Shown here piece by piece: positions 25,129 through 63,380 of a stretch of 64,000 nucleotides of DNA. Below the pieces are notes generated by a model that saw only the letters and a program-made list of their open reading frames with translations, made no database searches and was not told where the DNA came from. Positions within the stretch are counted from its first letter, which is position 1, and the number at the start of each line of letters is the position of its first letter. The position numbers and the translations under genes were made by a program. Source of the stretch: Pigmentiphaga kullae (GTDB taxonomy: Bacteria; Pseudomonadota; Gammaproteobacteria; Burkholderiales; Burkholderiaceae_B); assembly GCF_004216695.1 (NCBI RefSeq), contig NZ_SGXC01000003.1, forward strand, positions 62,001 through 126,000, given 5' to 3'.

Positions 25129-25203
25129 GGGCGGTTAGCTCAGTGGTAGAGCACTGCCTTCACACGGCAGGGGTCACTGGTTCGAAACCAGTACCGCCCA
25201 CCA
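25129..25203 (+). tRNA. tRNA-Val, anticodon CAC
   Basis: A full cloverleaf can be drawn: acceptor stem GGGCGGT/ACCGCCC, D arm with AGCTCAGTGGTAGAGC, anticodon stem CTGCC/GGCAG with loop TTCACAC (anticodon CAC), T arm with GGTTCGAAACC, and encoded CCA (25201-25203). It reads GUG codons. An AT-rich stretch with TATGCTATAGT at about 25075-25085 may hold the -10 of its promoter. A run of 13 C follows the gene. Confidence 0.95.
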
Positions 25204-25289
25204 ATTCCCCCCCCCCCCCTCTCTCCATATCGTCTTTCCCACCCGGGAATGCGCTCGCGTTCGTGCGTCCGGCGGTTCTCCGTAATCGC

Positions 25290-25315
25290 AAATTACGTGA
25301 ATAATCACGTAATTT
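25290..25315. promoter_or_regulatory. Perfect inverted repeat upstream of the TRAP operon
   Basis: AAATTACGTGA and TCACGTAATTT are exact reverse complements separated by ATAA. The AT-rich 26-bp site lies about 55 bp upstream of the predicted -35 box. It is a good operator candidate for the MarR regulator encoded in the same operon or for an outside activator. Confidence 0.6.
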
Positions 25316-25370
25316 ATGTTGATTCTTCACGGATTGCTAGGTGTTTTCACCAGATTAACAGCCGATTTCA

Positions 25371-25398
25371 TTGACTTTCCTGGCTGTTTATAAATAAT
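25371..25398 (+). promoter_or_regulatory. Candidate promoter of the TRAP/aminophenol operon
   Basis: TTGACT (25371-25376) and AATAAT (25393-25398) with 16-bp spacing, 84 bp upstream of the dctP ATG. A further imperfect inverted repeat, AGCTGGTAGCTACCGGCT (25430-25447), lies in the leader. Confidence 0.55.
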
Positions 25399-25482
25399 AA
25401 GATCGTGAAAATTCACCGAAATTTAAATGAGCTGGTAGCTACCGGCTTCTGAGTCGCACCTTTGTTTCGACCTGGAGCAATC

Positions 25483-26451
25483 ATGAGAGCGATGCGAGCA
25501 CTACCGTTGGCCGTCTGCCTGATCGTTGCAACCATACCCAAGTTCGTCCATGCGGCGGAGGTCGTGCTGAAGGCGGTAAGCGCCTTCCAGGAGGGCACGT
25601 ACTTTTCCAGGAACTTCGAGAGCTTCGTGAAGAAGGTCAACGAGGAAGGCAAGGGCATCGTCCGGATCGAGTACATAGGCGGCCCCAAGGCGATTCCGAC
25701 CATGGAGCAGGGGGCCGCGCTGCGCAACGGGGTGATCGATCTGGCCAACACCACGGCGACGTTCACGGCAAGCATCGTTCCGGAGGGATTGGCGCTGAAC
25801 TACGCGACCCTGCCTTTCTCGGAAATCCGCAAGAACGGCAGCCTCGACTATCTCAATTCGATCATGCGGCAGAAGGGGCTGTACTACTTCGCGCGTACCG
25901 GCGATCGCATTCCCTATCACATCTATCTGAACAAGAAGATAGACAAGCCCGATCTGTCCGGCCTGAAGATCCGCATCACCCCCATCTTCCGGGACTTTTT
26001 CGTCAAGCTGGGAGCGGGAGTCGTCCAGATGGCGCCGGGCGAGGTCTACACGGGCCTGGAGCGCGGGGTGGTGGACGGCTACGGCTGGCCCGCAATCGGC
26101 ATCTTCGACCTGGGCTGGCAGGAAAGGACGAAGTATCGATTGGAACCGGGGTTCTACACGCTCGAGCTGGGCATCCAGTTCAGCGCCCGGCGGTGGGACA
26201 GCCTGACCCAGGAGCAGCGTGACTTCCTGCAAAAGCAGGTGGCCTGGCTGGAGAAGATGTCCCTGGACGCTTCGCTGCGCGACGCGGCCGCCGACATCAA
26301 GAGGCAGTCCGAAGCCGGCATACAGCCCATCAGGCTGTCCGACGCGGATTCGGCGGCTTTCCTGGCCAAGTCGCAGGAAGCGGGCTGGGCGACGGTCTTG
26401 AGCGCCAGTCCCAAGCACGGACCCAGGCTGCGCCAGATGATGGCGCCTTGA
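25483..26451 (+). CDS. TRAP transporter solute-binding protein (DctP type)
   Basis: A 322-residue periplasmic receptor for a tripartite ATP-independent periplasmic transporter. The signal peptide is MRAMRALPLAVCLIVATIPK and cleaves near VHA-AEV. Family features include a region around GLKIRITPIFRDFF containing the Arg that usually binds the substrate carboxylate, and GEVYTGLERGVVDGYGWP. I chose ATG 25483, which follows TGGAGCAATC. It leads the dctPQM set that heads toward the sulfatase and aminophenol genes, so the ligand may be an acidic aromatic conjugate (inference). Confidence 0.92.
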   Translation: MRAMRALPLAVCLIVATIPKFVHAAEVVLKAVSAFQEGTYFSRNFESFVKKVNEEGKGIVRIEYIGGPKAIPTMEQGAALRNGVIDLANTTATFTASIVPEGLALNYATLPFSEIRKNGSLDYLNSIMRQKGLYYFARTGDRIPYHIYLNKKIDKPDLSGLKIRITPIFRDFFVKLGAGVVQMAPGEVYTGLERGVVDGYGWPAIGIFDLGWQERTKYRLEPGFYTLELGIQFSARRWDSLTQEQRDFLQKQVAWLEKMSLDASLRDAAADIKRQSEAGIQPIRLSDADSAAFLAKSQEAGWATVLSASPKHGPRLRQMMAP

Positions 26452-26469
26452 AGGTGATCGGGGGCGACA

Positions 26470-26979
26470 GTGAAAATCTATGTGTGGATCTTGAACGCGT
26501 TCGGCCTGGTCGCCGGACTGCTGGTGGGCGCCATGGTCATCCTGGTCAGCTACGACGTCGTCGCCCGCAATGTGGGGATGCCGTCGTTCGCGGGGGCCAT
26601 GGACGTTACCGAGCATCTGCTGCCGGTGGCGACGTGCATCGCCGCGCCGTGGCTCATGTACAACCGCCAGCATATCCGCCTGGACGTGCTCAACGCACTG
26701 TCCGAGGGAGTCAGATTCGCGATCTTCCGGATCGCGGCGGTGATCGGCTGTGTCGTCAGCGTCGTGATCGCCTGCTACTCGGTCGCGGTGATGCTCGATG
26801 CCTACGAGGCCGAAGCGGTCGTCATGAAGAGCATCGTCTTTCCCGAATGGTTCATCTACATTCCTTTCCCGGCCTGTTTCGCGCTGCTGGCCATCGAGTG
26901 CGGCAGGCAGGCCGTGGTCGGAGAGCGGGCGGACGCCGAGAATCGCGATTCGCTGCTCAAGCCGGAGAACCTGCTATGA
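26470..26979 (+). CDS. TRAP transporter small permease (DctQ type)
   Basis: A 169-residue membrane protein with four hydrophobic segments (about residues 5-28, 47-63, 83-107 and 125-145), the usual topology of TRAP small subunits. It starts at GTG 26470, 18 bp after dctP. The stop overlaps the start of the large permease (ATGA), so the two are translationally coupled. Confidence 0.9.
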   Translation: MKIYVWILNAFGLVAGLLVGAMVILVSYDVVARNVGMPSFAGAMDVTEHLLPVATCIAAPWLMYNRQHIRLDVLNALSEGVRFAIFRIAAVIGCVVSVVIACYSVAVMLDAYEAEAVVMKSIVFPEWFIYIPFPACFALLAIECGRQAVVGERADAENRDSLLKPENLL

Positions 26980-28295
26980 GCTGGTGGGAAAGTCTCACGC
27001 TGCTGTTCGGGCTGTTATCCGTGCTGCTGCTGGTCGGGGTGCCGGCCGGGTTTGCCTTCCTCGCGATCAACCTGGTCGGCGCGCTGGTCTACCTCGGCGG
27101 GGCGCCTGGTCTGATGATGGTGGTTCGCAACGGCGTGGCGTCGGTTACCAGCTTTTCGCTCACGCCCATTCCTTTTTTCCTGCTGATGGGCGAAGTGCTG
27201 TTCCATACCGGCCTGGCCATGAAGGCCATCGACGCCTTCGACCGGGCGGTGCGCCGCGTTCCGGCACGGCTGTCGATCGTGGCGGTCGTGGCCGGTACGG
27301 TGTTCTCGGCCATATCCGGGGCGACGGTGGCCACGACCGCGCTGCTCGGCAGCCTGCTGCTGCCGGAAATGCTTCGGCGCGGCTACCATCCGCGCATGGC
27401 CATGGGGCCCATCATGGCCATTGGCGCGGTCGACATGCTGATTCCTCCCTCGGCGCTGACCGTGCTGCTGGGCAGCCTGGCCAATATCTCGATCTCGGGA
27501 CTGCTGCTGGCAGGCGTCCTGCCGGGCCTGCTGCTGTCGGCGATCTTCGTGTTCTACATCGTCGCGCGCGCAAAGATGAATCCCGAGCTCGCGCCGAGCT
27601 TCGTCCGGGAAGAAGTGACGGGTTGGGAGCGATGGCGTCCCCTGATCGTGCACGTGACGCCGCTGGTCTCCATCTTCGCGGTGGTCGTCGCTTCGATGAC
27701 CGCCGGATGGGCAACGCCAACGGAGTCCGCCGCGCTGGGGGCATTGTGCACCGTGCTCGTGTGCGCGCTGTACCGCAGCCTGTCGTGGCGCATGCTGGTC
27801 AAGGCGCTGACCGGAACGGCCGCCATCAGCGGCATGATCCTCTTCATCATCATCGGCGCCACGACTTTCTCGCAGATCCTGGCGTTCTCCGGCGCGACCA
27901 ACGGCCTGGTCGGCCTGGTCCAGGGCTCGGGGCTGTCGAGCTGGCTCGTGCTGGCCGTCATGATGGGCATACTCCTGGTGCTGGGGTGCTTCGTCGACCA
28001 GATAAGCATGATGCTGATGACCCTGCCGTTCTTCATGCCCCTGGTGGCGCACTTCGGATGGGATCCGCTCTGGTTCGGCGTCATGTACCTGATATGCATG
28101 CAGCTGGGCCTGCTGACCCCGCCGTTCGGCATGCTGCTCTTCACCATGCGCAGCGTGGCCCCGGCCCACATCCGCACCACGGAGATCTTCGCCGCGGCCG
28201 TGCCCTACGTGCTGTTCGGCCTGTTGATGCTGCTGATGGTCATGCTTGTGCCGGACATTGCCACCGGGCTGCCGCGTTGGCTGATGACGCGGTAG
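26976..28295 (+). CDS. TRAP transporter large permease (DctM type)
   Basis: A 439-residue inner-membrane protein with about 12 hydrophobic segments. It carries the family's conserved stretches (VPAGFAFLAINL, SFSLTPIPFFLLMGEVLFHTG, GTVFSAISGATVATTALLGSLLLPEM, AGWATPTESAALGAL, MQLGLLTPPFGMLLF). With the small permease and DctP it forms a cation-driven uptake system. ATG 26976 overlaps the small-permease stop. Confidence 0.94.
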   Translation: MSWWESLTLLFGLLSVLLLVGVPAGFAFLAINLVGALVYLGGAPGLMMVVRNGVASVTSFSLTPIPFFLLMGEVLFHTGLAMKAIDAFDRAVRRVPARLSIVAVVAGTVFSAISGATVATTALLGSLLLPEMLRRGYHPRMAMGPIMAIGAVDMLIPPSALTVLLGSLANISISGLLLAGVLPGLLLSAIFVFYIVARAKMNPELAPSFVREEVTGWERWRPLIVHVTPLVSIFAVVVASMTAGWATPTESAALGALCTVLVCALYRSLSWRMLVKALTGTAAISGMILFIIIGATTFSQILAFSGATNGLVGLVQGSGLSSWLVLAVMMGILLVLGCFVDQISMMLMTLPFFMPLVAHFGWDPLWFGVMYLICMQLGLLTPPFGMLLFTMRSVAPAHIRTTEIFAAAVPYVLFGLLMLLMVMLVPDIATGLPRWLMTR

Positions 28296-28349
28296 GGCCC
28301 CGGGGATTTCATAGGCCAGTGGCGCGATGCCACGTTGGAGGAAAAGATC

Positions 28350-28859
28350 TTGATACCCGCTCCAGACAAGCACGAACGAAGGGGAACGCCGGAAGCGGAG
28401 CTGTTCCATGTCGCCGACTGGCCCATGCACTACATGCTGGCCATCGACCGCCAGCACGTCCACAACATGGCGAAGATTCTCAAGCCGTTCGATTGCTCGC
28501 CATTGATGTGGCGAGTGGTCAGCGTGCTTTCCGACCAGGACGGCCGCAGCGTGGCCGAACTGGCCGAGACCACCGTCATCGAGCGCTCCAACCTGAGCCG
28601 CCTGCTCGATGCCATGGAGGAGGACGGCCTTGTGACGCGGTCCCACGGGGTCGAGGACAAGCGCCAGACCATGGTCTATGTGACGGCGAAGGGGCGGAGT
28701 CTGTTCGAACGGTCGCTGCCGGCGGTGCTGGGTTATTACCAGATATTCCTGGCCGATATTTCCCCACCGGAAATGACGGTCCTGATGAAGGTGATCAGGA
28801 CGATCAAGCGCAACGTCATGGATTTCGATCCTCGTCCCGATGAGGATGAAACGCCATGA
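28350..28859 (+). CDS. MarR-family transcription regulator
   Basis: A 169-residue regulator with a MarR winged helix: SPLMWRVVSVLSDQDGRSVAELAE, then recognition helix RSNLSRLLDAMEEDGLVTR and wing DKRQTMVYVTAKG. I place the start at TTG 28350 because GGAGG at 28337-28341 is well spaced for it. MarR proteins often respond to aromatic carboxylates or phenols, matching the aminophenol genes that follow. The gene ends by overlapping the sulfatase start (ATGA). Confidence 0.87.
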   Translation: MIPAPDKHERRGTPEAELFHVADWPMHYMLAIDRQHVHNMAKILKPFDCSPLMWRVVSVLSDQDGRSVAELAETTVIERSNLSRLLDAMEEDGLVTRSHGVEDKRQTMVYVTAKGRSLFERSLPAVLGYYQIFLADISPPEMTVLMKVIRTIKRNVMDFDPRPDEDETP

Positions 28860-30442
28860 CCCGACCCGAGAGCTCCGCGGCGTCGACCGCGGTCCGCAAC
28901 GTGCTGTTCATCATGTGCGACCAGTTGCGCGCCGACTATCTGGGCTGCTATGGCCATCCGTCGATCCGCACTCCCAACATCGATGCCCTGGCGTCGCAGG
29001 GCGTGCGGTTCACCCGGGCCTATTGCTCGGCGCCGACGTGCGGCCCGTCGCGCATGTCCTTCTATACCGGGCGCTCCATGACCTCGCACGGCGCCATCTG
29101 GAATTTCATGCCGCTGTCGATCGGACAGCCGACGATCGGGGATTGGCTGCGGCCCCGCGGGGTGGAAGTGGCGTTGGCCGGCAAGACGCATTTCGCGCCG
29201 GACCTGGACGGCCTGCAGCGCGTGGGGGCGCACGTGCCGCCGGAGGCGCCGGTGCTCGAAGGCGGCTTCCTGGTGGTCGACCGCTACGAGGGGCATGCCA
29301 ATCCGGGGCCCGAGCATCCCTATACGAAGTACCTCAGGGCCGCGGGGTACGACGTGGCCGATCCCTGGTCGGATTTCGTGATCGCCGGCGAAGACGAAGC
29401 GGGCCGTCCGGCCAGCGGCTGGGAGATGCGTAATGCGCACTACGCTGCCCGGGTCGACGAGCGGCATTCCGAGACGGCCTACACCACGGATGTCGCGATC
29501 GATTTCATCCGCCGCCAGCAGGGGCGTCCGTGGCTGCTGCATGTCAGCTACATCAAGCCCCACTGGCCGTACATCGCTCCCAGTCCCTATCACGCCATGT
29601 ATGGCCCGGAGGACTGCCTGCCGGCATGCCGCGACGACGCGGAGCGCGACGACCCGCACCCTGTCTATGGCGCCTATCTGCGGCACGGCGAGTCCTCGGC
29701 GTTCTCGCAGGAAAAGGTGGCCTCGCACGTCAAGCCTACCTACATGGGCCTGGTCACGCAGATCGACGATCATCTCGGCCGGCTGCTCGAAGCGCTGCGC
29801 GCCACCGGCCAGTACGAGGACACGCTGATCGTCTTCACGTCCGACCATGGGGACTATCTGGGCGATCACTGGCTGGGCGACAAGGATCTTTTCCATGATC
29901 CCTCGGCCCGCATTCCTTTCATCATGGTCGATCCCCGGGCCAGGCCCGAAACCCGAGGCTCGAGCGTGGACCGGCCCGTCGAGTCCATCGACTTCCTGGC
30001 GACGGTGGCCGATGCGTTCGAGGTGCCCGATACCGACCACGTGATCGAAGGCATGTCGCTGCTGCCTTTTTCGCGCGGGGGCGCCAGCGCGCCGTGGCGA
30101 TTTGCCGCCGTGAGCGAGCTGGACTATGCCTTTCGGGAAGCCCGGGTGCTGCTGGGCCGGGACGCCCGCCGCTGCCGGGGCTACATGGTCAGGAGCGACC
30201 GCTGGAAGTACATCTACTGGGAAGGGTTCGCACCGCAGCTGTTCGACATGCAGGAAGACCCGATGGAGTTGCGGGACGTTGCGTCGAACCCCGGGCATGC
30301 CAGCGTTCTCGCCCTGCACAAGGAGTACCTGTTCGACTGGCTGCGGCAACGCAAGACCAGCCTGACCGTTCCGTCCACGCGCATCGTCGTCTCGCGGGAC
30401 ACCATCGAGCCGGCGCACGGTATCCGGATCGGTGTCTGGTAG
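28856..30442 (+). CDS. Sulfatase / phosphonate monoester hydrolase-like enzyme
   Basis: An alkaline-phosphatase-superfamily hydrolase of 528 residues. The formylglycine motif is CGPSR with Cys62, needing oxidation to formylglycine. Metal ligands are in MCDQLRAD (Asp22) and TSDHGDYLGDHWLGDKD. Overall the protein resembles the phosphonate monoester hydrolase/arylsulfatase group (SPYHAMYGPED, TYMGLVTQIDDHLGRLL, LFDMQEDPMELRD, and a C-terminal RKTSLT). Members are promiscuous toward aryl sulfates, phosphodiesters and phosphonate monoesters. It has no signal peptide and so is likely cytoplasmic. Its position directly before amnBA suggests it releases an aminophenol from an ester (inference). Confidence 0.88.
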   Translation: MTRPESSAASTAVRNVLFIMCDQLRADYLGCYGHPSIRTPNIDALASQGVRFTRAYCSAPTCGPSRMSFYTGRSMTSHGAIWNFMPLSIGQPTIGDWLRPRGVEVALAGKTHFAPDLDGLQRVGAHVPPEAPVLEGGFLVVDRYEGHANPGPEHPYTKYLRAAGYDVADPWSDFVIAGEDEAGRPASGWEMRNAHYAARVDERHSETAYTTDVAIDFIRRQQGRPWLLHVSYIKPHWPYIAPSPYHAMYGPEDCLPACRDDAERDDPHPVYGAYLRHGESSAFSQEKVASHVKPTYMGLVTQIDDHLGRLLEALRATGQYEDTLIVFTSDHGDYLGDHWLGDKDLFHDPSARIPFIMVDPRARPETRGSSVDRPVESIDFLATVADAFEVPDTDHVIEGMSLLPFSRGGASAPWRFAAVSELDYAFREARVLLGRDARRCRGYMVRSDRWKYIYWEGFAPQLFDMQEDPMELRDVASNPGHASVLALHKEYLFDWLRQRKTSLTVPSTRIVVSRDTIEPAHGIRIGVW

Positions 30443-30488
30443 GCCGGCCCCAGGCCGGAGTTTCATGGGGGTAATCAAAGGAGACGGT

Positions 30489-31567
<1,079 letters not shown>

Positions 31568-31594
31568 TGCCGGCAACCCTGAAGAGAGAAAAGA

Positions 31595-32408
31595 CATGCC
31601 CATAGCAAGCGCATTTCTGGTGCCGGGAACGCCGCTGCCGCTGCTGCGGCGGGACAATCCTCCCTGGGAGGCCATCGCCCGCGGCTATGAAGCCGCGGGG
31701 CAGGCGCTGGCCGCAAGCAAGCCCGACGTGGCGCTGATCTATTCCACGCAATGGATCGCCGTGCTGGACCAGTTGTGGCAGACGCGCGGCCGCATCCAGG
31801 GTTCGCACGTGGACGAGAACTGGCACGAGTATGGCGAACTGCCGTTCGATATCCGTGTCGATACCGACCTGGCGAAGGCGTGTATCGCGTCCACGGCGCA
31901 GATCGGCGTGCGGTCGCGCGAGGTGGATTACGATGCCTTTCCCATCGACACGGGCACCATAGTCGCCACGCATTTCCTGTTGCAAGGCCTGGACATCCCG
32001 GTGGTGCTGACGTCCAACAATCTCTACCACGACGGGCAGACCACCGAGAGCCTGGGCCGCCTGGCCGCGCAGGCGGCGGATGCGCAGGGCAAGCGCATCG
32101 CGGTGATAGGCGTGGGGGGACTGTCGGGTTCGAGTTTCCGCCAGGACATCGACATCGCGGCCGACCATATCGTCAATGACGAAGAAGACCGCGCCAACCG
32201 AGAGATGCTGGCGCTGCTGGAGCGCGGCGACGTGGCCGAGGTACGGGAGAAGGCGCCCGGCTACGCGCAGTCCGCCCGGGCCGACATGGGCTTCAAACAT
32301 CTCTACTGGGTGCTGGGAGCGCTGGGCGGGCAGTACAAGAAGGCCCGCACCCATGCCTACGGCCCGGCCTTCGGCAGCGGCGCGGCGGTCGTCGAGTTCC
32401 AGCACTAG
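31595..32408 (+). CDS. amnA: 2-aminophenol 1,6-dioxygenase, alpha subunit
   Basis: Structural partner of AmnB, 270 residues, the same LigB fold without a complete iron site. It matches the AmnA pattern throughout: [79 protein letters not shown]. Start ATG 31595 follows GAGAGAAAAGAC. The gene is 27 bp after amnB. A strong hairpin separates it from amnD. Confidence 0.92.
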
Positions 32409-32420
32409 GGCCTGGGCCCG

Positions 32421-32446
32421 GCCCCTCGCGGCATGCCGCGAGGGGC
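32421..32446 (+). terminator. Hairpin between amnA and amnD, weak terminator or attenuator
   Basis: A perfect 12-bp GC-rich stem (GCCCCTCGCGGC/GCCGCGAGGGGC) around AT is followed by TTTC. The T-run is short, so it may let part of the transcripts continue into amnD, or protect the amnBA message. Confidence 0.55.
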
Positions 32447-32467
32447 TTTCATGCAGCGAGTCCCCTC

Positions 32468-32887
32468 ATGGCATCTTCTTCATCCGCGGTCGTGTCCGGC
32501 CGCGCGGCTCCGCTCGGCCGCTACCCGCATTTCCGGCGGGCCGGTCCCTTCCTGTTCGTGTCCGGGACCAGCTCGCGCCGGCCGGACAACACCCATGCCG
32601 GCGTCGAGATCCTGCCGGACGGCGTACGCCTGGACATCCGCGAGCAGACCCGCGCGGTCATCCAGAACATCGCCGGCATTCTGCAGGAGGCGGGAGCGAG
32701 CCTGTCCGATCTGGTCGAGGTGTCCACGTTCCTGGTCGACATGGATGACTTCGCCGGCTACAACGAGGTCTACAACGAGTTCTTCGGCTACGACGGCCCC
32801 GCGCGCACGACGGTGGCCGTGCGCCAACTGCCCCATCCCCACCTGCTGATCGAGATCAAGGCCGTGGCCTACGTGCCGCAGGCCTGA
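32468..32887 (+). CDS. amnD: 2-aminomuconate deaminase (RidA/YjgF family)
   Basis: A 139-residue RidA-fold protein. It matches the aminomuconate deaminase type within this large family: [32 protein letters not shown], a conserved Arg in [32 protein letters not shown], and [24 protein letters not shown]. It converts 2-aminomuconate to 4-oxalocrotonate with release of ammonia, the third step after ring cleavage. The dehydrogenase (amnC) and later steps are not in this window. Its stop is 5 bp from the end of the convergent operon. Confidence 0.9.
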
Positions 32888-32892
32888 GGCGG

Positions 32893-33765
32893 TCAGGGCG
32901 CGGTTCCATCGCGCAGCCAGGCCGAGACCTTGCGCACCCACGGGTGGGCCGGGTCCGCCAGGCCCAGCGCCGTGTCGAAATGGCCATGCTCCGGATAGAC
33001 CTCGCTCACCACGCCGGAGGGCTGGCGCGCCAGGGTCTGGGTGGCGAGCAGGTTGCTGGCGATGATGCGCGGAAAGTCGCGTTCGCCATGGCTCAGGAAG
33101 AAGGGCGTGCGGTTGCCTTCCATCTGGTGCAGGGGGCTGGCCGCCGGCGCGTCTTCCGCCCGCGCCAGGAAGATCTCGTAGATGCGCGCTTCGCCGCTGC
33201 CCGGCTCGGGCGCATCGAAGACCAGGTTCAACTGCGAGCTGACGGGAAAGCAGGCCTTGATGGTGTCGGGCGCCAGGCCCGCCTGCCCGAGCAGGTCGTG
33301 CCTGAGCGTCGCGAGCGCGTACAGGTGTCCGCCGGCCGAATGCCCGCCCACGTAGATGCGATCCGGGCTGCCGCCGTAGTCCGAAATATGGTCGCGCACC
33401 CAGCGCAGGGCCGCCACGCAGTCGTCCAGCGGCGCGGGAAATCGGACGTCGGGCGCGAGCCGGTACGAGACCGAGACGAAGACGGCCGGCGTGGCGACGA
33501 TGGCGGGCGCCATCAAGCCCATCCATTCCTTGTAGCCATGGCTCCAGGCGCCGCCGTGCGCGAACACCAGCACGGGCAGCCCCTCCAGCCGCTGTTCGGG
33601 CAGGTAGACGTCCACCTTCTGCCAGTAGTCGCTGCCGTAGGGCAGGTCCAGCACGCAGCGGGTGCGTCCCGCCGCTTCCCGCGATAGTGCCAGGGCCTGC
33701 CGGGCGTAGGCCTCGGCTTCCTCGGGATAGATGGGGGATTGGGCGGGCAGGTCGTCAAAAGCCAT
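32893..33765 (-). CDS. Alpha/beta hydrolase, arylformamidase/carboxylesterase-like
   Basis: A 290-residue cytoplasmic hydrolase. The oxyanion motif is HGGAW, followed by the nucleophile elbow GHSAGG, with an Asp/His pair near the C-terminus (HGERDFP, EHGHFDTA). The layout resembles kynurenine formamidase-like and hormone-sensitive-lipase-type esterases. It is the last gene of the leftward IclR/amidohydrolase/ABC set. Hydrolysis of an N-formyl, carbamate or ester bond on an aromatic amine would fit the neighbouring aminophenol genes, but that is inference. Confidence 0.82.
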   Translation of the reverse strand: MAFDDLPAQSPIYPEEAEAYARQALALSREAAGRTRCVLDLPYGSDYWQKVDVYLPEQRLEGLPVLVFAHGGAWSHGYKEWMGLMAPAIVATPAVFVSVSYRLAPDVRFPAPLDDCVAALRWVRDHISDYGGSPDRIYVGGHSAGGHLYALATLRHDLLGQAGLAPDTIKACFPVSSQLNLVFDAPEPGSGEARIYEIFLARAEDAPAASPLHQMEGNRTPFFLSHGERDFPRIIASNLLATQTLARQPSGVVSEVYPEHGHFDTALGLADPAHPWVRKVSAWLRDGTAP

Positions 33766-33783
33766 GGGGTCGTCCAGAATGGG

Positions 33784-34773
33784 TCACTTGGGAACGAAGC
33801 GCGTGGTGAACGCGGCGGGGGGGACGCTGTCCAGGAAGCCGGCTCCCATGACCTCGTTGGACAGGCGCGCGAAATTCCCCAGGTAGCGGATGTATTCGTC
33901 GTTCCAGGTCAGCACGTAGTCGGCGTTCACCCGCTCCTGCAGGATGCGCACGTTGTCGGCGTCGAAGCCGAACTGCTTGCCGTAGGCGACGAATACCTCG
34001 GGATGCGTCTTCACGTAGTTCACCGCCTCGATCCAGGCGCGGACGAAATTGGCCAGCGCCTCGGGCCGGGCCTTCATGAAGTCGTCGTTGGTCGCATAGC
34101 CGGTCCAGAGAAAGTCCTCGCCAACCTTGTCCTTGTAGACGTCGGCCAGGTTGCCGATGGAGCGGAACTTGCCGGAGGCGATCGCCTTGGCCGCCAGCGG
34201 GTCGAACAGCAGGGCGGCCGAGATCTCTCCCTTCTCCAGCAGCGAGGGCAGGAGGCCGGGGCCGGCGTACTGCAATTGGCCGCCGGTGCCCGGGTCATAG
34301 CCGAAATACTTGCTGGTCAGCACCCGCAGAAGCACGGTAGCGGTGCCCGCCGCGCCCGCGTACGAGCCGATGCGCTTGCCCTTGAGGTCGGCCAGCGAAC
34401 GGATGGGCGAGTCCTTGGTGACGAGCACGTCCAGCGAAGCGCCGCGGCCCACCGGATACAGCATCGTCACCGGCACGCCCTTGCTGCGGAACTGGGCGAA
34501 AGCCGTCCAGCCGCCGAAGCCGATGTCGACCTGCTTGCCGCGTATCGCGGTGAACAGGCCGTCCAGGGTGGGGTAGACCGAGTACTCCACCTTGAGGCCG
34601 TACTTCTTGTCGATGCCCTGGGACACCATGACGCCCGAGGCGATGCCGTTGACCGACTGCGCCAGGTCGCCCAGCCGTATGGTGACCGGTTCGGCGGCCT
34701 GCGCGGCCGGATACCAGGTTGCCGCGGCGAGCAAAGCCAGGCGGCAAAGACGAATTGCCAGCGATTTCCACAT
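33784..34773 (-). CDS. ABC transporter substrate-binding protein (nitrate/taurine/NMT1-like)
   Basis: A 329-residue periplasmic receptor of the SsuA/TauA/NMT1 type. The signal peptide (MWKSLAIRLCRLALLAAATW) cleaves near AQA-AEP. The binding-protein signature is seen in SVYPTLDGLFTAIRGKQVDIGFGGWTAFAQFRSKGVPV and LADLKGKRIGSYAGAAGTATVLLRVL. Related proteins bind sulfonates, nitrile/amide compounds, pyrimidines or aromatic acids. It is the third component of the ABC system with the two genes upstream. Confidence 0.88.
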   Translation of the reverse strand: MWKSLAIRLCRLALLAAATWYPAAQAAEPVTIRLGDLAQSVNGIASGVMVSQGIDKKYGLKVEYSVYPTLDGLFTAIRGKQVDIGFGGWTAFAQFRSKGVPVTMLYPVGRGASLDVLVTKDSPIRSLADLKGKRIGSYAGAAGTATVLLRVLTSKYFGYDPGTGGQLQYAGPGLLPSLLEKGEISAALLFDPLAAKAIASGKFRSIGNLADVYKDKVGEDFLWTGYATNDDFMKARPEALANFVRAWIEAVNYVKTHPEVFVAYGKQFGFDADNVRILQERVNADYVLTWNDEYIRYLGNFARLSNEVMGAGFLDSVPPAAFTTRFVPK

Positions 34774-34824
34774 GCCAGTTCCTTGACGAAGATGATGGGC
34801 CGGCCGAGCCGGCGGACACGCCGG

Positions 34825-35610
34825 TCAGGGCGTGGCGGGCGCCGCGGCTTGTGCGACTTCGAGAAACAGCTTCACCACCCTGCGGTTGATCTCGAAGATC
34901 CCGGGGTCGTCGTAGTCCCGCGGCCGGGCTACGTCTATGGGTATTTCCTGCTGCACCTCGCCCTGGGACATCATCAGGATGCGGTCCGACAGGAACGAGG
35001 CCTCGTACGAGTTGTGGGTCACGAAGATGATGGTCTTGCCGGTGTCGCGCCAGATGTCCAGCAGGTCCACGCGCAGCCGCCGCGCGGTCAGCTCGTCCAG
35101 CCCGCTGAAGGGCTCGTCCATCAGCAGCACGTCGGGTTCGACGCACAGCGCGCGCACCAGCGCCAGGCGTTGGCACATGCCGCCCGACATCTGGTGGGGG
35201 TAATGGCCGCGGAACGCATCCAGCCGCGTCAGTTGGAAGTGGCGGTCCTTCAGCTCGGCCCAGCGCGAGGAGGGGACCCGGCAGCTGCGCATGGCGAAGT
35301 CCACGTTCTGCTCGGCGGTCAGCCATGGCAGCAGGCGGGGTTCCTGGAACAGATAGCCGATGCGCAGCGGCGGCTTGCCGGCCTTGAACTTGCGGCCGCC
35401 CACGTCGATCTCGCCGCTGTAGCGGGGATCGAGGCCGGACAGGATGTTCAGGAAGGTGGACTTCCCGCATCCCGAGGGGCCCAGGATGCAGATGAATTCA
35501 TTCCTGCGCACGACCAGGTCGAGACCCTTGAGGACGCGCAGCGGCGCTGCGCCGTCGCGGCCGGGGAATTCCTTGACCAGGTTGCGGACGGAAAAGACGA
35601 CGTCGTTCAT
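34825..35610 (-). CDS. ABC transporter ATP-binding protein (SsuB/TauB type)
   Basis: A 261-residue ATPase with Walker A GPSGCGKST, Q-loop FQEPRLLPW, signature variant MSGGM, Walker B LLMDEPFSGLD and switch THNSYEA. The signature residue order SGGMCQR is the variant usual in this subfamily. ATG 35610 overlaps the permease stop. It energises import with the permease and binding protein of the same operon. Confidence 0.93.
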   Translation of the reverse strand: MNDVVFSVRNLVKEFPGRDGAAPLRVLKGLDLVVRRNEFICILGPSGCGKSTFLNILSGLDPRYSGEIDVGGRKFKAGKPPLRIGYLFQEPRLLPWLTAEQNVDFAMRSCRVPSSRWAELKDRHFQLTRLDAFRGHYPHQMSGGMCQRLALVRALCVEPDVLLMDEPFSGLDELTARRLRVDLLDIWRDTGKTIIFVTHNSYEASFLSDRILMMSQGEVQQEIPIDVARPRDYDDPGIFEINRRVVKLFLEVAQAAAPATP

Positions 35611-36350
35611 AGTTCCACCCTCGGGCGCCAGGAGAAGAGTCGATGCTCGATCGGCTTGAGAATCGCCAGTTCGATGATCAGCATCACGATGGTGAACAGC
35701 AGCGTCCATGCCAGCACCTGGGGCATGTCCGCGAGCTGGTACCAGTAGAAGAGCTGGAAGCCGACGCCGTTGGGGCGGCCGATGAGCTCCACCAGCACGG
35801 CGATCTTCCAGATGATCCCCAGGCCGAAACGCACCGAGGCCATCACGTAGGGCAGTACCTGGGGCAGGACCACGCGCCGGAACACGGTCCAGCGGTCGGC
35901 TTCGAACACGCGGGCCATCGCCACGAGCCGGGTGTCGATGTTCTTGACTCCTTCCCACAGGTTGATGGCGATCGAGGGGGCGGCGGTGATGCCGATGGCG
36001 ACGATGGTGGCGGCCTCGTTCAGTCCCAGCCAGATGAAGCACACCAGCGCGTAGCACAGGCTGGGGACGGTCAGGCCCACCATCACCCACAGATCCAGGG
36101 CCCGCTCGATCTGCCGGTACAGGCCCATCAGCACGCCGATGGGCACGCCTATCAGCAACGCCAGCGCCAGGCCCGCCGTCACCCGGGCCAGCGTCATCCA
36201 CAGATGGACGAGGACGTTGCCGGCGGCGATGTTCTCCACCAGCGTCTGGAGCGTGAGCAAGGGACCGGGCAGCACCGAGGCCGTGAAGGCCAGGGACAGC
36301 AGCCACCACAGCGCGATCGCCGCGGCGATGGAAACGAGCCTAATCATCAT
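35607..36350 (-). CDS. ABC transporter permease (SsuC/TauC type)
   Basis: A 247-residue inner-membrane protein with about six hydrophobic segments and the EAA loop, MARVFEADRWTVFRRVVLP, that contacts the ATPase. I chose ATG 36350, which overlaps the amidohydrolase stop (ATGA); the next codon is also ATG. The longer frame to 36491 lies inside the amidohydrolase gene and is not credible. Confidence 0.91.
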   Translation of the reverse strand: MMIRLVSIAAAIALWWLLSLAFTASVLPGPLLTLQTLVENIAAGNVLVHLWMTLARVTAGLALALLIGVPIGVLMGLYRQIERALDLWVMVGLTVPSLCYALVCFIWLGLNEAATIVAIGITAAPSIAINLWEGVKNIDTRLVAMARVFEADRWTVFRRVVLPQVLPYVMASVRFGLGIIWKIAVLVELIGRPNGVGFQLFYWYQLADMPQVLAWTLLFTIVMLIIELAILKPIEHRLFSWRPRVEL

Positions 36351-37741
36351 GGGGTTCCTTGGGAGGTCAGAGTGCGATGCTGCGGTCGGCGGACCCCGGC
36401 CTTGGCCAGGGCTCGCCCGGCCAGTTCCCCGGCGCGGTCCAGCAGGGCGGTTTCGTCGACGCGGGTCAGGCGGCGGTCCCGCATCAGCCATTCACCGTCC
36501 ACCATGGCATCGCGCACGTCCGAGCCCCGCGCGCTGAAGACCAGCGCCGCCTCGAGGTCGAAGGCCGGCACCAGGTGGGGCTGGCGCAGGTCGACCGTGA
36601 TGAGGTCCGCCTGCTTGCCGGTTTCCAGTGAGCCCGTCCGGCGGTCCAGGCCGAGCGCACGCGCGCCTTCGATGGTCGCCATGCGCAGTGCCCGCCGCGC
36701 GTCCAGCGCGTGGGGATCGCCCGCCGCGGTCTTGGCGGTCGCGCACGCGTACTTCATGCTCTCGAACAGATCCTGGCCGCAGTTGGCGGCGGGTCCGTTG
36801 GTGGCGAGCCCGCAGTTGATGCCGGCTTCGAGGAAGGGCGTCAGCGCGGGAAAGCCGGTGCCCCAGAAGAGCCGGGTCTGCGGATCGAGAACGACCGAGG
36901 TGCCGGTCTCGGCCAGCAGGGCGATCTCGTCGGGGGAAAGGTCCGATACGCCTACCGCCTGCACGTCGGGGCCCAGACAGCCGGTTTCGTGGAGCAGTTC
37001 GACGTTGCGGACCGGCCGGCCGTAGTGGCGTTCGATGATGCGGTTGAACTCGCGCGACTCGGCCACGTGCATGTGCAGGCTGATGCCCAGTTCGGTGGCG
37101 AGCGCGCGGCTGGCGCGCAGCATGGACTCGTCCAGGGTCCAGGGCAGCAGCGGGCCGAAGGATAGTCCCAGGCGTCCCTGGGCGCGGCCGTGCCAGCGCG
37201 CGTGCAGGCTGCGTACCCGCTGCGCCTGCTGCGCCGGCGTCTCGACGAATGCGGGGTCGAAACGGACGGCTTCGAAGGCGCGGGCCACGATGCCGCGCAT
37301 GCCCGTGCTTTCCATGGCGGCGAAGGCGCTGTCTTCGGGCGATAGCGAGTCCGACCGGGGGGCGAACAGGTTTTCCACCAGTGTCGTGCTGCCATTCTTC
37401 AGGTTCTCGATGCAGCCCAGGGTCTGCGCCGCCAGCATGGCTTCGGCGTCCAGCGCGCGCATCAGCGGCATCTGCAGGTCCAGCCAGGACAGCAGGTCGG
37501 TGTTCGTCGCCAGCGTGCGGCCGAAGATCATGCACAAGTGCGTGTGGCAATTGACCAGACCGGGCATGACCGCGTGGCCGGCGGCATCGTGGCGCCGCGC
37601 TTCGAGGTCGCGGGGCAGGCCTTCCCGGGGGCCGACATACGCCAGGCGGGAGTCCTCGACCAGTACGCAGCCGCGCTCGTGAATGTCGCCGGCCGGGTTC
37701 ATGGTCAGGACCACGCCGTTCTCTATCAGTGTCCGTGTCAT
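36347..37741 (-). CDS. Amidohydrolase superfamily protein with altered metal site
   Basis: A 464-residue cytoplasmic protein of the AtzB/TrzN/S-adenosylhomocysteine deaminase branch. The first metal motif HTH (His66, His68) and the His in HMHVAES (His225) are kept. Three usually conserved positions differ: the His of the HCVxL motif is Gly264, the His of HNPxSN is Leu285 (VLDPQTR), and the Asp of TDGAxSN is Asn315 (TNGPAAN). The C-terminal RALRMATIEGARALGLD and GSLETGKQADL are normal. It may use a different mechanism or substrate. It is the first structural gene after the IclR regulator, ahead of the ABC transporter. Confidence 0.87.
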   Translation of the reverse strand: MTRTLIENGVVLTMNPAGDIHERGCVLVEDSRLAYVGPREGLPRDLEARRHDAAGHAVMPGLVNCHTHLCMIFGRTLATNTDLLSWLDLQMPLMRALDAEAMLAAQTLGCIENLKNGSTTLVENLFAPRSDSLSPEDSAFAAMESTGMRGIVARAFEAVRFDPAFVETPAQQAQRVRSLHARWHGRAQGRLGLSFGPLLPWTLDESMLRASRALATELGISLHMHVAESREFNRIIERHYGRPVRNVELLHETGCLGPDVQAVGVSDLSPDEIALLAETGTSVVLDPQTRLFWGTGFPALTPFLEAGINCGLATNGPAANCGQDLFESMKYACATAKTAAGDPHALDARRALRMATIEGARALGLDRRTGSLETGKQADLITVDLRQPHLVPAFDLEAALVFSARGSDVRDAMVDGEWLMRDRRLTRVDETALLDRAGELAGRALAKAGVRRPQHRTLTSQGTP

Positions 37742-37756
37742 GGAAACTCCGATGGG

Positions 37757-38554
37757 TCAGGCGGCGGATGCGCGGCGGGACTGCGTGGCCGTGGCCGCGT
37801 CGCTGATGTGGCGCGCGGCGGCCACCACGCGCAGCACGGCCTGTTTCAGCACCTTGTCCTGAAGGCGGAAGGCCGGCGCGGCAAGGGTGATGGCGCCGAT
37901 CAGCGAGCCGGACGGAAAGAAGGCGGGAGCCGACACGCTGCGCACGCCGGCCTCGATCTCGCCGTCGCTGATGGCATAGCCCTGCTCGCGTATGGCCGCC
38001 AGGGACCGTTCCAGCGCCTGCGGGTCGAAGGGCTTGCCGCCGGGTTTCGCCGCGCGCAGGCGCGGCAGCACGCGCGCGCGTTCCTGTTCTTCCAGATAGG
38101 CCAGGTGGACCTTGGCCGACGAGCCCAGGTGCAGCGGCACGTTGCGGACGGGATCGACCGAGACCCGGACGGCTTGCCGGCTTTCCAGTGCCACGGTGCA
38201 GATGACGCGATCGCCGATGCGTGTCGTGAAGAGCACGGTTTCGCCGCTGGCCAGGGCCAGCTCGTGCACGAAGGGCTCGGCGATGGAGGCCGAGGTGCTG
38301 GGGTCCTCGCAACTGCGGACGAGATTGACGAAGGCGGATCCCAGGCGATAGTTGCCAGCCCCGTCCACGTCCTCGATCAGGCCGCGTTCGCGCAGGATCT
38401 GCAGGTAGCGATAGGTGGAGCTGCGCGAGGTCCCGAATTCCCGCGCGATGGCCTGCGCGGAATGGACGGCGCCGGGGGTGACGAACGACAGCCAGATGTC
38501 GACGATGCGTTCGAACGACGGGTAATGCTCCACACCTTCTGCCTGGATCGCCAT
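37757..38554 (-). CDS. IclR-family transcription regulator
   Basis: A 265-residue regulator. The N-terminal winged helix (SFERIVDIWLSF, SAQAIAREFGTSRSSTYRYLQILRERGLIED) precedes an IclR effector domain with SVDPVRNVPLHLGSSAKVHLA. I chose ATG 38554, after GGGAG; the longer frame to 38620 includes the presumed operator. It leads a five-gene leftward set of amidohydrolase, ABC transporter and hydrolase, which it probably controls. Confidence 0.88.
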   Translation of the reverse strand: MAIQAEGVEHYPSFERIVDIWLSFVTPGAVHSAQAIAREFGTSRSSTYRYLQILRERGLIEDVDGAGNYRLGSAFVNLVRSCEDPSTSASIAEPFVHELALASGETVLFTTRIGDRVICTVALESRQAVRVSVDPVRNVPLHLGSSAKVHLAYLEEQERARVLPRLRAAKPGGKPFDPQALERSLAAIREQGYAISDGEIEAGVRSVSAPAFFPSGSLIGAITLAAPAFRLQDKVLKQAVLRVVAAARHISDAATATQSRRASAA

Positions 38555-38570
38555 GATCGCTCCCTGCTGA

Positions 38571-38587
38571 GTCCGGCCATACCGGAC
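38571..38587. promoter_or_regulatory. Candidate IclR operator
   Basis: GTCCGG and CCGGAC are a perfect inverted repeat around CCATA, 17 bp upstream of the IclR start. A second imperfect repeat, CCTCAATGGC...GCCATGAGG, lies at about 38624-38649. Confidence 0.4.
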
Positions 38588-38683
38588 AAGGTGTGTCTCA
38601 TTATAGGAATGCGTTTTCATCCCTCAATGGCCAGTCCAGCCATGAGGGAATCCGGTGCTCCTATACGGGAAACTCCCAGGCGC

Positions 38684-61952: not shown

Positions 61953-63380
61953 ATGGTTGACGCCACGCGCGCGGCGCAGCGCCCGCGCAGCATGTTCGAG
62001 AAGATATGGACCCGCCACGTCATCGCCGAGCGCGAGGGCGGCGAGTCGCTGATCTACATAGACCGCAACTTCGTGCATGAAGGGCCGTTCTACGCCTTCG
62101 ACGGCCTGCGGCTGGAGAACCGCAAGGTCCACCGCCCGCTCAAGCAGTTCGCGATCGCGGACCACTACGCGCCCACGAAGCATCGCGAAGCGGGCGTGGT
62201 GGCCATCCAGGATCCGGACATCCGGAGGATGATCGAACAGCTCGAACAGAACGCCCGCGATTTCGGCGTGCCGCTGATCGGCATGACCGATGCGCGCCAG
62301 GGCATCATGCACGTCGTCGCCGCCGAGCTGGCCCTGGTGCAGCCGGGCATGATCACGACGGCGGCGGATTCGCACACGACCAGCATAGGCGCGTTCGGGG
62401 CGCTGGCCTTCGGCGTGGGGGCGTCCGAGATCAAGCACATCCTGGCGACGCAGTCGCTCTGGTTCCGCAAGCCGAAGACGATGCGGGTTACGGTGGAGGG
62501 AAGCCTGCCCCGCGGCGTGGCGGCCAAGGACGTGATCCTGGCGGTGGTCGGCAAGGTGGGGCTGTCCGGAGGGACAGGCCACGTCATCGAGTACGCGGGG
62601 CCGGCCATCGGCGCGATGACGATGGACGAGCGCATGACGATCTGCAACATGTCGATTGAAATGGGGGCGCGCGCGGGCATGGTGTCGCCCGACGAGACCA
62701 CCTTCGCCTACCTGAAGGGACGCCAGTACGCGCCCCCGGCGGAATACTGGGAGCGGGCGCTGGCGTTCTGGCGCGGGCTGCCGACCGAACCCGGCGCGCA
62801 TTTCGACCAGGAAATCTCCCTGGATACCTCGCGCATCGAGCCCATGGTCACCTGGGGCAACCTGCCCGAGCATGCGTTGCCCATCAGCGCGCGGGTGCCG
62901 CATCCGGACGAAGCGGCCAGCGAGAAGCAGCGCGGCCACTACGAGCGCGCGCTGGCCTACATGCAGCTGGAGCCGGGCATGCGGCTGACCGACGTGGCGG
63001 TCGACCGCGTCTTCATCGGTTCGTGTACCAACGCCCGCTTCGAGGATCTGGCCGCGGCGGCCGAGATCCTGAAGGGCCGGCACGCGGTCGTGCCCGCCAT
63101 GGTGTCGCCGGGTTCCACCGACGTGAAGCGTCGTGCCGAGGCGGCGGGGCTGGACCGCATCTTCAAGGAAGCCGGCTTCGAATGGCGCGATTCGGCATGT
63201 TCGATGTGCGTCGGGTCGAACGGCGACTTCGCGCTGCCGGGCGAGCGCTGCGCGTCGACGTCTCCGCGCAACTACGAGAATCGGCAGGGCCGCGGCGTGC
63301 GTACGCACCTGATGAGCCCGGCGATGGCGGCGGCAGCCGCCGTTACCGGCAGGCTGACCGACGTTCGCAACCTGGGCTAG
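61953..63380 (+). CDS. Aconitase-family hydro-lyase, large subunit (LeuC-like)
   Basis: A 475-residue LeuC-type protein that would isomerise or hydrate a hydroxy-acid with a [4Fe-4S] cluster. Cluster ligands are Cys358 (GSCTNAR), Cys416 and Cys419 (DSACSMCVG). Other conserved parts are MTDARQGIMHVVAAE, ADSHTTSIGAFGALAFGVGASEIKHILATQ, KPKTMRVTVEG and SNGDFALPGERCASTSPRNYENRQG. It is catabolic rather than leucine-biosynthetic by context; citraconate/citramalate or dimethylmalate-type dehydratases are LeuCD relatives. leuD-like follows after 10 bp. Confidence 0.92.
   Translation: MVDATRAAQRPRSMFEKIWTRHVIAEREGGESLIYIDRNFVHEGPFYAFDGLRLENRKVHRPLKQFAIADHYAPTKHREAGVVAIQDPDIRRMIEQLEQNARDFGVPLIGMTDARQGIMHVVAAELALVQPGMITTAADSHTTSIGAFGALAFGVGASEIKHILATQSLWFRKPKTMRVTVEGSLPRGVAAKDVILAVVGKVGLSGGTGHVIEYAGPAIGAMTMDERMTICNMSIEMGARAGMVSPDETTFAYLKGRQYAPPAEYWERALAFWRGLPTEPGAHFDQEISLDTSRIEPMVTWGNLPEHALPISARVPHPDEAASEKQRGHYERALAYMQLEPGMRLTDVAVDRVFIGSCTNARFEDLAAAAEILKGRHAVVPAMVSPGSTDVKRRAEAAGLDRIFKEAGFEWRDSACSMCVGSNGDFALPGERCASTSPRNYENRQGRGVRTHLMSPAMAAAAAVTGRLTDVRNLG

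Follow-up and report, generated by a model that had tools for sequence, protein, structure and literature searches.

The amn pathway for 2-aminophenol, a toxic aromatic compound, and its dioxygenase have already been described (PMC3790839). Here we analyzed two convergent operons containing amnB, amnA and amnD in a 64,000-nucleotide stretch of Pigmentiphaga kullae DNA, which we call the window (positions 62,001 to 126,000 of contig NZ_SGXC01000003.1, contig C3 of our genome G000, whose size is 6.2 Mb). According to PMC3790839, the amnRJBACDFEHG cluster of Burkholderia xenovorans LB400 has AmnB, AmnA, a RidA-type AmnD and MarR regulation in common with the window. It differs in that the window locus carries only amnB, amnA and amnD, without amnC, E, F, G and H, has a MarR protein of another type, and adds importers, a sulfatase and hydrolases. 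The cnb cluster on plasmid pCNB of Comamonas testosteroni CNB-1 (L088) encodes a 2-aminophenol-type 1,6-dioxygenase whose beta subunit is 78% identical to that of the window, but its annotated stretch has an amidase and no sulfatase or amidohydrolase. The cnb pathway of CNB-1 is reportedly fed by chloronitrobenzene reduction. Some known 2-aminophenol pathways start from nitrobenzenes, and in the study of the ARO microcompartment the authors called the natural substrate upstream of 2-aminophenol unknown (PMC10470539). The ARO locus described there resembles ours in its 2-aminophenol meta-cleavage genes, a regulator of the IclR type and the candidate C-N hydrolase HyuAB, and differs in being encapsulated and actinobacterial. 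Finally, BxdA of Microbacterium and CbaA of Pigmentiphaga sp. DL-8 (PMC11297187) belong to systems in which compounds of the (methoxy)benzoxazolinone, or (M)BOA, type are broken down through aminophenols. The two hydrolases of the window match other families.

In the literature, covered mostly as titles and the beginnings of abstracts, we found neither a paper on a joint system of this kind nor one that assigns a sulfatase, this amidohydrolase or a formamidase-like hydrolase to amn clusters. Judged from the sequences, what appears to be new is an amidohydrolase subfamily with an altered active site and the recurrence of formamidase-like hydrolases beside amnB. We propose, at a probability of roughly 0.55, a catabolic island whose substrates are conjugated 2-aminophenols (amides, perhaps sulfates); these would be imported, unmasked and then opened by ring cleavage. 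The two operons span 25483-38620 and are composed as follows.

25291 to 25417, no strand assigned: operator/promoter region of the rightward operon, with palindromes and a sigma-70-like promoter, conserved in the related records L007-L009
25483 to 26451, plus strand: dctP, TRAP solute-binding protein (PF03480, E 6e-28)
26470 to 26979, plus strand: dctQ, TRAP small permease (PF04290)
about 26976 to 28295, plus strand: dctM, TRAP large permease (TIGR00786, above cut-off)
28335 to 28859, plus strand: MarR-family regulator of a sulfatase-linked type (59-61% identity to MarR proteins beside sulfatases in L238/L240)
28856 to 30442, plus strand: putative sulfatase / phosphonate monoester hydrolase relative with a CGPSR motif (PF00884; 4upl and 4upi, E ~1e-142)
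30650 to 31567, plus strand: amnB, 2-aminophenol 1,6-dioxygenase catalytic (beta) subunit (3vsg_B, E 6e-169; 8ihg_A, E 1e-165)
31596 to 32408, plus strand: amnA, 2-aminophenol 1,6-dioxygenase alpha subunit (3vsg_A, E 6e-102)
32468 to 32887, plus strand: amnD, 2-aminomuconate deaminase of the RidA family (6izh, E 1e-48; tree)
32893 to 33765, minus strand: abh, alpha/beta hydrolase of the BD-FAE/HSL group, candidate conjugate-releasing amidase/esterase (PF20434; HGGAW, GHSAG)
33784 to 34773, minus strand: ATP-binding cassette (ABC) importer solute-binding protein, NMT1/SsuA type (PF09084; TIGR01728 below cut-off)
34825 to 35610, minus strand: ABC importer ATPase (PF00005)
35607 to 36350, minus strand: ABC importer permease (PF00528)
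36347 to 37741, minus strand: amh, TRZ/ATZ-like amidohydrolase, Asn replacing the catalytic Asp and the beta-6 His absent
37757 to 38620, minus strand: IclR-family regulator (PF01614, PF09339)

A preliminary description of this DNA, made from the sequence alone, had given the same gene content, order and strands and had placed the two operon ends 5 bp apart, which agrees with the stop codons of amnD (32887) and of the leftward hydrolase (32893); the coordinates of the IclR gene, dctQ and dctM are corrected in the list above. The same description called the amidohydrolase divergent, which is true of its sequence but not of its orientation, the gene lying on the same strand as the IclR and ABC genes. 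The nearest relatives at the locus are two Pigmentiphaga sp. records and one Burkholderiales metagenome-assembled genome (MAG), with AmnB 96-99% identical. Because three related records (L007-L009) carry the complete layout, the arrangement is no artifact of a single assembly. With stops derived from the ends of the open reading frames, the junction between the operons measures 5 bp in L007 and 17 bp in L009 and is an overlap of about 19 bp in L008.

The identities of AmnB, AmnA and AmnD, already asserted in the preliminary description, are secure by homology. AmnB and AmnA align nearly full-length with the solved subunits of 2-aminophenol and 2-amino-5-chlorophenol 1,6-dioxygenases. In a gap-free alignment to 3vsg_B, AmnB carries HPPH from residue 13, HSPHW at 59-63 and E251; we take the iron ligands of the beta subunit, as in the CNB-1 structure, to be His13, His62 and Glu251. 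The best match of the RidA-type protein is the 2-aminomuconate deaminase 6izh, and the protein groups with RidA proteins of other amnBA loci. Its identification as AmnJ was ruled out, since it is only 32% identical to the RidA protein at the AmnJ position of pCNB. Other arrangements of these genes were also observed: a second AmnA-like match lies about 5 kb further on in the amnBA loci L011, L013, L014 and L053, one open frame of L078 (16546-18567) combines a LigB domain with an ABC permease domain, and in genome G193 a second amnB-amnA-amnD set (L124 7870-11436) is accompanied by an alpha/beta hydrolase gene of its own, in divergent orientation.

The functional link between the leftward set (IclR regulator, amidohydrolase, ABC importer and abh) and amnBA is supported by comparison of genomes. 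The family sample comprised 268 genomes, in which amnB and the amidohydrolase were each scored at E 1e-80 or better; amnB was found in 25 and the amidohydrolase in seven. Among the 11 genomes of the genus the two genes occur together in six and are both absent from five (Fisher p 0.002, without phylogenetic correction). Six of the seven amidohydrolase genomes, G000 included, are genus members with amnB; the seventh, G204 (41% identity), was set aside, as it lacks the subfamily motif. The neighborhood search that the preliminary description had called for found left-set genes adjoining amnBA in other orders elsewhere. In G193 (L122) the order on one strand is amnB-amnA-iclR-amh-permease-ATPase-binding protein-abh, and L074-L076, from Alloalcanivorax and an Alcanivorax MAG, have iclR-amh-permease-ATPase-binding protein-abh-amnB-amnA-dehydrogenase. 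L074 and L075 continue with FAA-family proteins, an acetaldehyde dehydrogenase, a DmpG-type aldolase and amnD (Pfam on L075; similarity), genes that would form a route to acetyl-CoA and pyruvate. In L046, an alphaproteobacterial MAG, a BMP-type ABC importer is followed by the amidohydrolase directly before amnB-amnA. Since the same partners recur in different orders and lineages, a shared function is hard to avoid. A gamma-glutamyl transpeptidase gene directly follows amnA in L046 (11835-13424), hinting at a gamma-glutamyl conjugate there.

A second sample of 46 genomes around Alloalcanivorax contained the amidohydrolase in five. The subfamily was thus found in 12 genomes (six of the genus, these five, and G637, the source of L046), and 10 of the 12 have amnB. 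This fraction may be biased upward, because seven of the 10 amnB-positive genomes were first seen through amnB (L007-L009, L046, L074-L076) and the second sample was centered on one of them, though the two samples together recovered all but G637 by the amidohydrolase alone. The class-wide amidohydrolase search (369 genomes) gave, besides G000, eight general matches at 32-37% identity, and the plasmid search at E 1e-60 gave only five Pantoea amidohydrolases at about 36% identity. Alloalcanivorax also has a second iclR-amh-permease-ATPase module after amnD (L074 17536-20868; L145, L146) with two binding-protein frames and, within the stretches read, no abh match. In L148 and L149 the left set stands without amnB; the scan of L149 showed RidA, Amidohydro_2, flavin reductase and FAA hydrolase genes nearby, perhaps another aromatic pathway.

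The alpha/beta hydrolase appears to be a wider recurrent partner of amnBA. The preliminary description had called it formamidase-like, and the motifs that we take to be typical of kynurenine formamidases (HGGxW, GxSxG and a late His) are all present in the window protein as HGGAW at 70, GHSAG at 141 and HGHF at 260. We compared the amnB loci of the best 80 of 113 relatives. Of the 80 loci, 18 have an abh relative no more than 3 kb from amnB; counting just the 65 loci with 3 kb on both sides, the number is 15. The motif is HGGYW in 12 of the 18 loci and HGGAW in six. Nineteen of 22 abh matches lie within 3 kb of amnB, against 10.3 expected at random places, a value reached in 1 of 20,000 draws. 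After removal of L008, L009, L075 and L076, 15 of 18 matches are close, which 27 of 20,000 draws reached; the randomization treats loci as independent, ignoring their relatedness. In the family sample, abh (E 1e-40 or better) occurs in 21 of the 268 genomes, and these 21 include 11 of the 25 amnB genomes. It stands directly after amnD in L241, where L242 has two abh-family frames, divergent to the second amnBA-amnD set of G193 (L124), about 11 kb from amnB in L243, and 3-4 kb from amnB in G037 and G039, the last two by coordinates alone. In L078 the order is RidA-amnB-amnA-binding protein-hydrolase-ABC genes-dehydrogenase-FAA hydrolase. In six more loci (L023, L026, L035, L042, L044, L049) an Amidohydro_3 protein is encoded no more than 6 kb from amnB, and the remaining loci of the 80 have neither an abh relative nor an Amidohydro_3 protein near amnB.

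The amidohydrolase belongs to the TRZ/ATZ group, with a best NCBIfam score of 284 bits against a cut-off of 522. It shares with TRZ/ATZ amidohydrolases (5'-deoxyadenosine deaminase, AtzA, 4dyk) the sequence family, the HxH pair, H225 and E228. The 10 aligned members, some of them closely related to one another, are invariant at the metal-binding residues H66, H68, H225 and E228 and throughout residues 315-339. The subfamily differs in the same 10 sequences by Asn315 in place of the beta-8 catalytic Asp and by the replacement of the beta-6 His with Gly264, or with Ala in the more distant members, whereas the five solved proteins whose alignments were shown all have both the beta-6 His and the catalytic Asp. 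Retention of the metal ligands and strong conservation of the pocket region suggest a site that is working but changed. The preliminary description had envisaged release of 2-aminophenol from a lactam by this enzyme; with two usual catalytic residues replaced, ordinary lactam or amide hydrolysis cannot be assumed. An AlphaFold model built with 10 sequences was set aside (mean pLDDT 58, below 50 at 287-297 and 312-408). The changed active site makes the amidohydrolase a compact enzymology question.

On the right side, the sulfatase carries CGPSR at residue 62, a CxPxR formylglycine-type motif, and its nearest solved chains (4upl, 4upi) are named sulfatase family proteins; the genome holds several proteins of this family. 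Orthologues at least 88% identical were found only in five genus members, 0.2 kb before amnB by coordinates, and the full order TRAP-MarR-sulfatase-amnBAD was seen in four of the five (the window and L007-L009). The MarR protein of the window has 59-61% identity to two MarR proteins of stand-alone sulfatase modules (L238/L240) and just 23-25% to the MarR proteins at the AmnR position of pCNB, L241 and L011. Upstream of dctP we found the palindrome CGTGA-N4-TCACG at 25296-25309, GGTG-N4-CACC at 25340-25351 and a third site at 25404-25417; a sigma-70-like promoter at 25371-25398 is flanked by operator-like sites. The promoter and palindromes are kept in L007-L009, with some changes in L008 and L009. 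A similar palindrome lies 14-16 bp before marR in all three stand-alone sulfatase modules examined (L238, L239, L240). By count the pattern is no commoner than chance (window, L238-L240), and it is position and conservation that carry the weight. This common operon head with its operator-like sites would tie the sulfatase to amnBAD in this clade. The simplest reading is that MarR controls the whole TRAP-MarR-sulfatase-amnBAD operon; if so, the substrate or product of the sulfatase would induce ring cleavage in this clade. Just before the operon, at 25129-25220, lie a tRNA-Val(cac) gene (ending at 25203) and then a run of C, a possible island boundary. Two paralogues of the TRAP transporter in the same genome (L246, L247) sit near large genes that may encode proteins resembling indolepyruvate ferredoxin oxidoreductase, a hint that this TRAP group moves aromatic acids.

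Candidate genes for later steps lie elsewhere. AmnC-like dehydrogenases are encoded in the same contig at C3:586142 (69% identity to the Alloalcanivorax protein of L075) and C3:556417 (63%), and two DmpE/DmpH-like genes adjoin the former, about 490 kb from amnB. The substrate of these dehydrogenases is not readable from NCBIfam, because both of them fall under TIGR03216 together with the proteins at the amnC position in L075 and pCNB.

The gene identities, the conserved linkage and the common operon head, all taken from sequence and comparison, give the following outline of the proposed island. In the left operon, an IclR-controlled ABC importer would take up a small amide- or carbamate-like conjugate, and abh and the unusual amidohydrolase would remove the acyl- or carbamoyl-type mask, freeing the amine. 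In the right operon, a MarR-controlled TRAP importer would take up an ester (most probably of sulfate), which the sulfatase would cleave to free the phenol. AmnBA would then open the ring of 2-aminophenol to give 2-aminomuconic semialdehyde, which an AmnC-like dehydrogenase encoded elsewhere would oxidize; AmnD would deaminate the product, and the distant DmpE/DmpH-like enzymes would continue. For the substrates, the order of the two hydrolases, the maturation of the sulfatase and the ligands of the regulators, this outline is what we infer.

Several findings weigh against this proposal, and some of them fit other explanations. The leftward operon might be a separate pathway for another amide or an N-heterocycle, placed near amnBA because catabolic genes gather in islands. 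G659 and G661, two of the five genomes around Alloalcanivorax, carry the full left set but no amnB (best match 25% identity), and 19 of the 25 amnB genomes of the family sample are without the amidohydrolase. The second Alloalcanivorax copy, with its two binding-protein frames and no abh match in the stretches read (L145, L146), indicates that the left set can vary by itself, and the neighbors of the set in L149 could be another aromatic pathway. We nevertheless consider a separate pathway unlikely: the set is co-directional with amnBA in Alloalcanivorax and L122, the amidohydrolase abuts amnB in L046, and presence and absence agree exactly in the genus sample. A regular occurrence of the amidohydrolase set without amnBA, which the preliminary description had named as contrary evidence, was not seen, although the number is not zero (two of 12 genomes). 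The joint function that it had put forward for both operons therefore stands for the left set, by its position beside amnBA in L122 and L074-L076 (L046 for the amidohydrolase only) and by the co-occurrence in the genus, and is weaker for the sulfatase. That enzyme might act on another sulfate or phosphonate ester, with amnBAD merely inserted behind it. Its 63-66% relatives in G042, G017 and G193 are far from amnB in MarR-TctC-sulfatase modules, so that sulfatase and MarR look like a module of their own, and homologues at E 1e-130 or better occur in 111 of the 268 family genomes. The link to amnB is confined to one clade, and a separate promoter may lie in the 207 bp that precede amnB. Moreover, an aerobic formylglycine-generating enzyme was not found in the genome in a search by PF03781 only, radical-SAM maturases not having been searched: the sole PF03781 gene reported (L167 8827-10386, G000 C3) was ruled out as a sulfatase-maturing enzyme, as it is EgtB (TIGR03440, above cut-off), which leaves even the sulfatase activity a prediction. 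We regard an unrelated ester as a somewhat doubtful explanation: the operon head is conserved, and in five members of the genus the sulfatase gene has kept its place 0.2 kb ahead of amnB, with the complete order seen in four.

The hydrolases raise further points against the proposal. The nearest solved relatives of the window abh are lipases and esterases and not a formamidase, which qualifies the name formamidase-like in spite of the motifs; the abh relative of L011 matches the kynurenine formamidase 4e11 (E 1e-13), but 9n8r, 2pbl and 4zrs match it better. The amidohydrolase, without the usual catalytic Asp and beta-6 His in any of its 10 aligned members and with an invariant Asn region, might not be an entry enzyme at all, being non-catalytic or acting differently, for example on the ring-cleavage product. 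This seems improbable to us: the protein retains HxH, H225 and E228 and a strongly conserved pocket region, and its gene sits with importers and hydrolases in most layouts seen. Likewise improbable is a xenobiotic pathway like that reported for Pigmentiphaga sp. DL-8, with a ring-substituted aminophenol as the actual substrate, for example the product of a chlorinated benzoxazolinone. AmnB is about equally close to the 2-amino-5-chlorophenol enzyme 3vsg and the 2-aminophenol enzyme 8ihg, and PMC11297187 cites the Pigmentiphaga hydrolase CbaA as acting on a benzoxazinoid derivative. The set is, however, also present in Alloalcanivorax and several Pigmentiphaga-type species, a better fit for a natural compound. 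In addition, CbaA is said to be neither an alpha/beta hydrolase nor a TRZ/ATZ protein, and so of a family different from both window hydrolases.

For the proposed island of conjugated 2-aminophenols, plausible natural substrates would be the benzoxazinoid-derived 2-hydroxyphenyl acetamides (HPAA, HHPAA), their sulfates, and 2-aminophenol sulfate. Aminophenols and acetamides are formed from benzoxazinoids by microbes (PMC11297187), and HPAA, HPAA sulfate, HHPAA sulfate and 2-aminophenol sulfate appear in human urine after whole-grain wheat (PMC5090248). Breakdown of HPAA sulfate would need a sulfatase and an amidase both. The preliminary description had suggested aminophenol sulfate or benzoxazolinone as the substrate, but nothing singles out either compound; benzoxazolinone itself is a possible substrate.

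More speculatively, and with odds that we put clearly below even, amnBA clusters across Proteobacteria may at root serve to degrade amide or ester conjugates of 2-aminophenol that occur in nature. An importer and a C-N or ester hydrolase (formamidase-like abh, Asn-type amidohydrolase, Amidohydro_3 or gamma-glutamyl transpeptidase) would then make up the natural upper pathway that has been missing, and the Asn-type amidohydrolase would be a new catalytic class in its superfamily. The genes beside amnBA name testable enzymes and substrates for the step upstream of 2-aminophenol. If the proposal is true, plant benzoxazinoids and their sulfates and acetamides in human urine would be linked to complete bacterial breakdown.

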